Shown one piece after another: positions 17,552-21,442 of a stretch of DNA of 64,000 bases (position 1 is the stretch's first letter; each line of letters starts with the position of its first letter). The stretch lies in NCBI GenBank assembly GCA_025360125.1, contig JANYCU010000058.1:1-64000 (forward strand). The letters run 5' to 3'. The notes beneath the pieces were generated by a model. That model was not told the origin of the DNA, did not search any database, and saw only the letters and a list, made by a program, of their open reading frames with translations. The position numbers and the translations under genes were made by a program. The stretch comes from Armatimonadota bacterium. GTDB lineage: Bacteria > Armatimonadota > Fimbriimonadia > Fimbriimonadales > Fimbriimonadaceae.

Positions 17552-17645
17552 TGGCGGGAATGTGTAGGAATCGAACCCACCCAACGCCCAAAGACGCCAC
17601 TACGGTTTTGAAGACCGCGGAGCACACCAGCACTCATTCACTCCC
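17552..17645 (-). tRNA. selC: tRNA-Sec (anticodon TCA)
   Basis: Reading the minus strand from 17645: a D-arm of six pairs (GAGTGC/GTGCTC) with a 4-nt TGGT loop. The anticodon stem GCGGT/ACCGT encloses CTTCAAA (anticodon TCA at 17609-17611). A long variable arm (GGCGTC/GGCGTT) is followed by a T-arm GTGGG-TTCGATT-CCTAC. The acceptor is 7 good pairs plus an A-A at position 8, then G and an encoded CCA. The extended D-stem, large variable arm, 8+5 acceptor/T layout and UGA-reading anticodon are diagnostic for selenocysteine tRNA. The organism therefore probably decodes UGA as Sec in some genes. selA, selB and selD are not in the window. Confidence 0.95.
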
Positions 17646-20922: not shown

Positions 20923-20956
20923 TTGAAATTATTTCCATATTTCTATAAATATAGAA
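20923..20956 (+). promoter_or_regulatory. Promoter and palindromic operator of the arsR-type operon
   Basis: TTCTATAAATATAGAA (20941-20956) is an inverted repeat of TTCTAT around AAAT. It overlaps a TATAAA -10 (20944-20949); TTGAAA (20923-20928) is a possible -35 with 15-bp spacing. An AT-rich dyad covering the -10 is the standard operator layout for ArsR/SmtB repressors, so the downstream gene is probably autoregulated. Confidence 0.65.
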
Positions 20957-20977
20957 CTATTGGAGTAAAATAAACCT

Positions 20978-21349
20978 GTGAGTGCAGAATCGATCGTTTT
21001 GATGATGAAAGCATTGGCGGACCCAACCCGCCTGCGAATCTACAACTTCTTGCGCGAAAGTTGTTGTGGAATCAAAGTAAAGGATGAAGAAGACGTTCTT
21101 GGTCCCTTGGGTCCAACTGTTAGCGAAGTTTGTTGCTGTGTCATGGGCTTGGAGAAGATTCCGTCTTCCCTGAGCTTCCATCTGAAAGAACTGCGGAATG
21201 CAGGCCTGATCAAGATGGAGAAACGCGGTAAGAACGTGCTCTGCTCGGTCAATCGCGAGGCCCAGTCAGAACTCGCCCAATACTTTTCGTCTCACGAAAT
21301 TTGCTGCGCTCGGGAGGAATCAAATGAACAACTGTTGCGAAACTTGTAA
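20978..21349 (+). CDS. ArsR/SmtB-family metal-responsive repressor
   Basis: 123 residues from GTG 20978. The winged-helix signature is clear: KALADPTRLRIYNFL at the start, then SSLSFHLKELRNAGLI as recognition helix and KRGKNVLCSV as wing. SEVCCCVM aligns with the ELCVCDL metal site of ArsR (alpha-3 site), so it should sense a thiophilic metal(loid) such as As(III), Cd(II) or Zn(II). Extra cysteine pairs occur in RESCCG and EICCARE. The 3' end overlaps a gene for a 22-residue Cys-rich peptide. The predicted role is to repress this operon until metal binds. Confidence 0.88.
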   Translation: MSAESIVLMMKALADPTRLRIYNFLRESCCGIKVKDEEDVLGPLGPTVSEVCCCVMGLEKIPSSLSFHLKELRNAGLIKMEKRGKNVLCSVNREAQSELAQYFSSHEICCAREESNEQLLRNL

Positions 21350-21392
21350 TTGCGAAAACTGTACATGCACTAATTGCTGTTGCGGCAAGTAG
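21324..21392 (+). CDS. Metallothionein-like Cys-rich micropeptide (22 aa)
   Basis: An ATG at 21324 opens a frame of 22 codons ending in TAG (21390-21392): MNNCCETCNCENCTC then TNCCCGK. Nine of 22 residues are cysteine (positions 4, 5, 8, 10, 13, 15, 18, 19, 20), including CxC and CC pairs typical of metal-thiolate clusters. A strong Shine-Dalgarno GGGAGGA lies 5 nt before the ATG, in a genome where many genes lack one. It starts inside the arsR-type gene, in another frame, and extends 43 nt beyond its stop. Operon context and Cys content indicate a small metal-binding peptide induced by the metal that the repressor senses (inference). Confidence 0.75.
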   Translation: MNNCCETCNCENCTCTNCCCGK

Positions 21393-21394
21393 TC

Positions 21395-21442
21395 AAAAAA
21401 TTCCCCGCGACAGGCGAAGCTGCGGGGAAGAACCTGTCTTTT
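21395..21442. terminator. Bidirectional terminator between the Cys-rich peptide and PAS genes
   Basis: TTCCCCGC (21401-21408) pairs with GCGGGGAA (21422-21429); on the minus strand it is followed by six T residues, ending the PAS gene. On the plus strand an overlapping hairpin GACAGG (21409-21414)/CCTGTC (21433-21438) is followed by TTTT, ending the arsR operon. The two stems are mutually exclusive. Confidence 0.75.

Follow-up and report, generated by a model that had tools for sequence, protein, structure and literature searches.

The window, a stretch of 64,000 nucleotides analyzed as a whole, encodes an ArsR/SmtB-family repressor whose 3' end is overlapped, in another frame, by a 22-codon gene for a peptide with nine cysteines. 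We propose, with a probability of about 0.7, that both genes form an autoregulated operon with As(III) or Sb(III) as the likeliest inducer, in which sequestration by the peptide replaces methylation by the product of arsM (arsenite methyltransferase). We also favor, a little less firmly, a broader reading in which overlapping operons of ArsR and mini-metallothioneins of 19-47 residues represent a class of metal(loid) buffers that recurs in the phylum (Armatimonadota) and has gone unannotated, with several origins and exchange among ArsR lineages and genera, and in which sequestration has replaced arsenic methylation in the window clade.

The arsR gene and the overlapping peptide gene

The features of the unit are listed in Table 1. 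The repressor scores 28.1 bits with the Pfam family domain PF01022 (HTH_5; cut-off 22) and 54.9 bits of 55 with the NCBIfam model NF033788, and its AlphaFold2 model has a winged-helix make-up (pLDDT 81). The first-pass annotation had described a GTG-started ArsR/SmtB gene with a CCC metal site. The gene and its start stand, but the CCC site as such does not: C52 and C53 are kept among the orthologues and C54 is not. The cysteines conserved among the orthologues are C29, C30, C52, C53, C89, C109, and C110, including the pairs C29-C30, C52-C53, and C109-C110. Upstream of the gene, the predicted dyad is present; its proposed position over the -10 is doubtful, since TAAAAT is a better -10 candidate by alignment with relatives, and the dyad more likely sits upstream of the -10. 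No sigma-70-type promoter passed in a promoter scan of the unit.

Table 1. Features of the arsR-peptide unit, in window coordinates.
Feature	Position	Strand	Remarks
Operator dyad TTCTAT-AAAT-ATAGAA (TTCTAT-N4-ATAGAA)	20941..20956		Perfect in G002; TTCGAA-N4-ATAGAA in G009
Candidate -10 TAAAAT	20966..20971	+	From alignment with relatives; ArsR start 7 nt downstream
ArsR/SmtB-family repressor	20978..21349	+	123 aa; GTG start at 20978, TAA at 21347-21349
Ribosome-binding site GGGAGGA of the peptide gene	21312..21318	+	Inside ArsR; kept in G002 and G009
22-residue nine-Cys peptide gene, mini-metallothionein-like	21324..21392	+	ATG at 21324, TAG ending at 21392
Hairpin TTCCCCGC...GCGGGGAA, possible terminator between converging genes	21401..21429	+	Weak; folding z-score -1.4

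The peptide, MNNCCETCNCENCTCTNCCCGK, has 9 Cys among its 22 residues. Its gene was found in the sequence as first described, out of frame with arsR and preceded by GGGAGGA; it overlaps the 3' end of the repressor gene by 26 nt, and the GGGAGGA of G002 and G009 doubles as coding sequence for ArsR residues. The peptide is short, very Cys-rich, devoid of aromatic residues and contains CC, CxC, and CCC motifs, which are the operational hallmarks of a metallothionein, and its Cys pattern occurred in none of 100 shuffles of the window. Profile searches of Pfam and NCBIfam up to E = 1 gave no family match for the window peptide; ten mini-peptide relatives (see below) likewise matched no known family in these databases, and the SmtA-type metallothionein model was matched neither by the peptide nor by these relatives. 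The hairpin behind the gene exists, but as the terminator of the unit it is weak, with the sole match of a terminator scan lying on the minus strand and none on the strand of the unit. Elsewhere in the window, a selenocysteine tRNA gene was identified at 17552-17645 on the minus strand (ARAGORN and Rfam RF01852).

The ArsR orthologue search covered 101 relatives, and the top matches were found in G002 (79% identity) and G009 (74% identity), both of the same genus as the window. Each has an overlapping short ORF at the matching place (MTPCCENCNCGNCGCGCCTCCGG in G002, MNCCENCNCETCNCGCCCCGSGGK in G009). When the three units are aligned, the ArsR stop is shared and the peptides start 20-23 nt upstream of it. 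The peptide lengths differ in whole codons, the Cys codons are kept with synonymous TGT/TGC swaps, and the non-Cys residues drift. Past the ArsR stop, the frame is open with at least six Cys in all three species; these 13-16 codons are the most telling part, since two frames constrain each other within the overlap. The retention of frame, cysteines, and ArsR synteny that the first-pass annotation had proposed to look for was thus found in two further species, and on this comparative evidence the peptide gene is judged a genuine, conserved gene.

Synteny among the three species is partial, with an SGNH-hydrolase gene upstream and a cystathionine gamma-synthase-type gene nearby downstream. The gene directly downstream varies: in the window it runs on the opposite strand and encodes a PAS protein, and in G002 and G009 it encodes a LacI-type regulator (the SGNH-hydrolase and LacI-type names are our own interpretation of the sequences). 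This gene order bears on a reading of the ORF as a leader peptide that exerts Cys-codon- or metal-dependent attenuation on a gene further downstream. A short, Cys-rich peptide followed by a hairpin would suit such a role, but the next gene in the window is convergent and the next gene differs between species, and we rejected this scarcely credible reading on gene order.

ArsR lineage, operator type, and the position of arsM

Near relatives of the window ArsR have arsM directly 3', often overlapping, and the protein encoded there scores 333 bits with the arsenite methyltransferase model NF008823 (cut-off 263). ArsM follows 31 of the 123 ArsR genes surveyed. In a tree of these 123 proteins, the three peptide-linked ArsRs form one clade, the sister of which (L018, in G037) is arsM-linked (support 99/98). 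Across the genus, which comprises 20 species, ArsM occurs in 12, none of them among the three peptide genomes, and Acr3 is absent from all three as well. The peptide genomes are therefore three of eight arsM-free species, giving p ~0.05 by hand for three genomes that are related and not independent. They each contain a second ArsR beside arsenate-reductase-like and aquaporin-like genes, labels based on reading of the sequences and on likeness between loci.

An operator of the TTCTA-N6-TAGAA type (at least 8 of 10 positions) stands before 27 of the 31 arsM-linked ArsR genes and 6 of the 19 remaining peptide-linked ones; of 70 other ArsR genes, 14 have it. Because related ArsRs carry arsM at the equal position, with the equal operator type, and arsM is never found together with the peptide in the genus, the peptide is considered to occupy the slot of arsM. 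The window unit thus shares with arsR-arsM operons the ArsR lineage, the operator type, and the position right behind arsR, but has a nine-Cys peptide where they have a methyltransferase. The first-pass annotation had likened the unit to SmtB/SmtA; the likeness holds only in part, since this ArsR lineage is otherwise paired with arsM, which makes As(III) a better first guess than Zn.

Some variants of the arsR-arsM arrangement were seen. An open frame at 583-1830 of L021 (minus strand, G090) apparently fuses ArsR to an arsenite methyltransferase-like protein, and in L006, L007, and L013 arsM lies between two different tandem ArsR genes, ~1.3 kb apart. A survey of 149 genomes belonging to the L067 phylum (record labelled Pirellula) yielded no ArsR of the window lineage.

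The top structural relative of the window ArsR by sequence profile is PDB 6j05, which we infer from its residue numbers to be AfArsR. In AfArsR, Cys95, Cys96, and Cys102 are the As(III) ligands (PMC13236881). The C-terminal pair C109-C110 of the window ArsR aligns with Cys95-Cys96, but Cys102 has no counterpart past C110 and the window protein has the extra pairs 29-30 and 52-53. For the window clade, we regard As(III) as the most likely ligand.

Recurrence of ArsR and mini-peptide pairs in the phylum

ArsR gene ends were searched for ORFs of 13-61 codons that start within 60 nt and have at least six Cys and at least 22% Cys. Such an ORF, of 19-47 residues, is carried by 22 of 121 ArsR gene ends in the phylum, a fraction that is not an unbiased phylum rate because the ArsR sample was collected by similarity to two peptide-linked ArsRs. 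The contrast with other gene ends in those loci, of which 0 of 1064 carry a Cys-rich ORF by equal criteria, is independent of this sampling bias. The unit, initially viewed as a single case, is therefore one of many, and the phylum contains at least 22 pairs of this kind. Most of the 22 ORFs have a good ribosome-binding site. In G066, from another family of the same order, the TGA stop of a different ArsR overlaps the ATGA start of MSKCKCCDCCDCCDCCDCCKCGCGCCSK; further mini-peptides are MTDDKKCCENGCCGGCDCC (19 aa), MNDDKKCDCGCGCRGCGCGCC, MPTNCLCCEGGCTCPCNCPNCNCC, MSEKECPCCPGGECNCPEGCENCDCC, and a form of 47 residues. Mapped on the ArsR tree, which is poorly resolved in places, the peptide label needs about four changes against the arsM label, and well-supported branches force at least two of these.

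The 3.3 kb around one arsR and mini-peptide pair are 99.97% identical in L337 (G033), L338 (G026), and L339 (G171), which belong to three genera, suggesting that this unit moved recently. In G026 it sits in an island of CusA/CzcA-, ZntA-, and CopA-like genes. Since other mini-peptide units lie near such Cu/Zn/Cd-type efflux genes, arsenic need not be the ligand throughout the class, and the metal of each unit probably depends on its sensor lineage. For the window unit, sensing and buffering of Zn, Cd, Cu, or another soft metal, as by SmtB/SmtA or a BxmR-regulated metallothionein, is a possible but rather unlikely reading. The Cys-only pattern would fit Cd, Zn, and Cu(I), the efflux island lends it some weight, and the gene behind a CVCE-lineage ArsR in G011 has a start that resembles, by eye, a heavy-metal-binding domain. 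However, the units near efflux genes have another ArsR lineage, mostly without the window operator type, the window lineage goes with arsM, and no metal transporter adjoins the window unit.

The survey also speaks to the reading of the window ORF as spurious or as the decayed start of arsM. The ORF is very short, lies in the arsM position, and partly overlaps ArsR coding sequence, and a different unit has a stop in one of two close copies (L345 vs L344). Nevertheless, the open Cys-rich frame past the ArsR stop in three of three species, the whole-codon length changes, the TGT/TGC swaps, and the empty control gene ends make such an origin very improbable. An arsM remnant in particular was rejected, as the sequence is unlike ArsM starts.

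Some loci deviate from the common arrangement. The mini-peptide gene of L345 (G051) has an internal stop, and its adjoining ArsR is nearly identical to that of L344 (G022). L297 and L298 (G165, G166) contain, at ~1429-1557 on the minus strand, a 42-residue Cys-rich ORF (MSNETCTCENCTCKGCAEGAICPCCAAGNCPCEEGCSNCDCC) and its near-copy without an ArsR neighbor; the end of this ORF resembles several ArsR-linked peptides.

Outside the phylum, no convincing mini-peptide was found after 61 ArsR loci (31 from diverse genomes and 30 from a single further phylum), a thin sample, so that the concentration in the phylum is provisional. Scanning GTDB for the exact Cys pattern gave, among the matches listed, mostly low-complexity or chance frames and no new ArsR neighbors, the same pattern in viral contigs yielded nothing useful, and the CC-x-CC pattern in the phylum hit mainly TGY repeats. 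A search with the window 22-mer returned itself and unlinked weak matches, missing even the two orthologues. The 47-residue relative had no match in a plasmid tblastn search; its PDB matches were scorpion toxins, which we rejected as a chance likeness in Cys spacing.

Proposed regulatory model and relation to known metallothioneins

The window peptide, rich in thiols, very probably binds metals or metalloids. The proposal that it buffers metal and is co-expressed with its sensor gains support from the frame, cysteines, synteny, and operator kept in two further species and from the many ArsRs of the phylum with similar partners. In the two-gene operon, ArsR dimers on the TTCTA-N6-TAGAA operator would keep both arsR and the peptide gene from being transcribed. 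Binding of a thiophilic metal or metalloid, As(III) (or Sb(III)) being the likeliest, to the paired ArsR cysteines would release the repressor. The overlapping start, with its strong ribosome-binding site, would then allow translation of the peptide through re-initiation or coupling. With its nine thiols, the peptide could hold a maximum of about three As(III) or form a small thiolate cluster with Zn, Cd, or Cu, acting as a minimal metallothionein. It would thereby stand in for the arsenite methyltransferase that this ArsR lineage controls elsewhere, sequestering instead of methylating. Conceivably, the peptide acts on the sensor itself, stripping the ion from ArsR and resetting it (feedback or chaperone) instead of serving bulk detoxification. 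The immediate, overlapping co-expression with the sensor, which recurs with several ArsR lineages, would agree with such a role, but plain sequestration explains it equally well, and we regard sensor resetting as unlikely.

Among the known pairs, smtB and smtA of Synechococcus are divergent, and nmtA of Anabaena is unlinked and far from azuR (PMC8790569). Both SmtB/SmtA and AzuR/NmtA resemble the window unit, as proposed here, in placing an ArsR/SmtB-family repressor over a Cys-rich metal-binding peptide via an inverted repeat. They differ in that the window genes overlap in one operon and that the peptide is less than half as long as SmtA and has no Pfam metallothionein match. Fungal copper metallothioneins of the Neurospora type, with about 25 residues, are similar to the window peptide in length and Cys density, but the latter is bacterial, is encoded behind ArsR, and has another Cys spacing. 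In the literature searched, with subscription journals mostly outside the search, we found no description of metallothioneins behind arsR. The window unit is a variation on the established pairing of repressor and metallothionein and belongs to a broader class.

Bacterial metallothioneins are regarded as rare, and the known ones have roughly 50 residues or more. Should the peptides be produced and prove to bind metal, a metallothionein could be as small as about 20 residues, and metallothioneins would occur in many more bacteria, hidden under gene-calling limits. The gene order offers a direct recipe to search for them, behind every ArsR stop, and the window clade would provide a testable case in which the detoxification strategy was swapped under an unchanged sensor.
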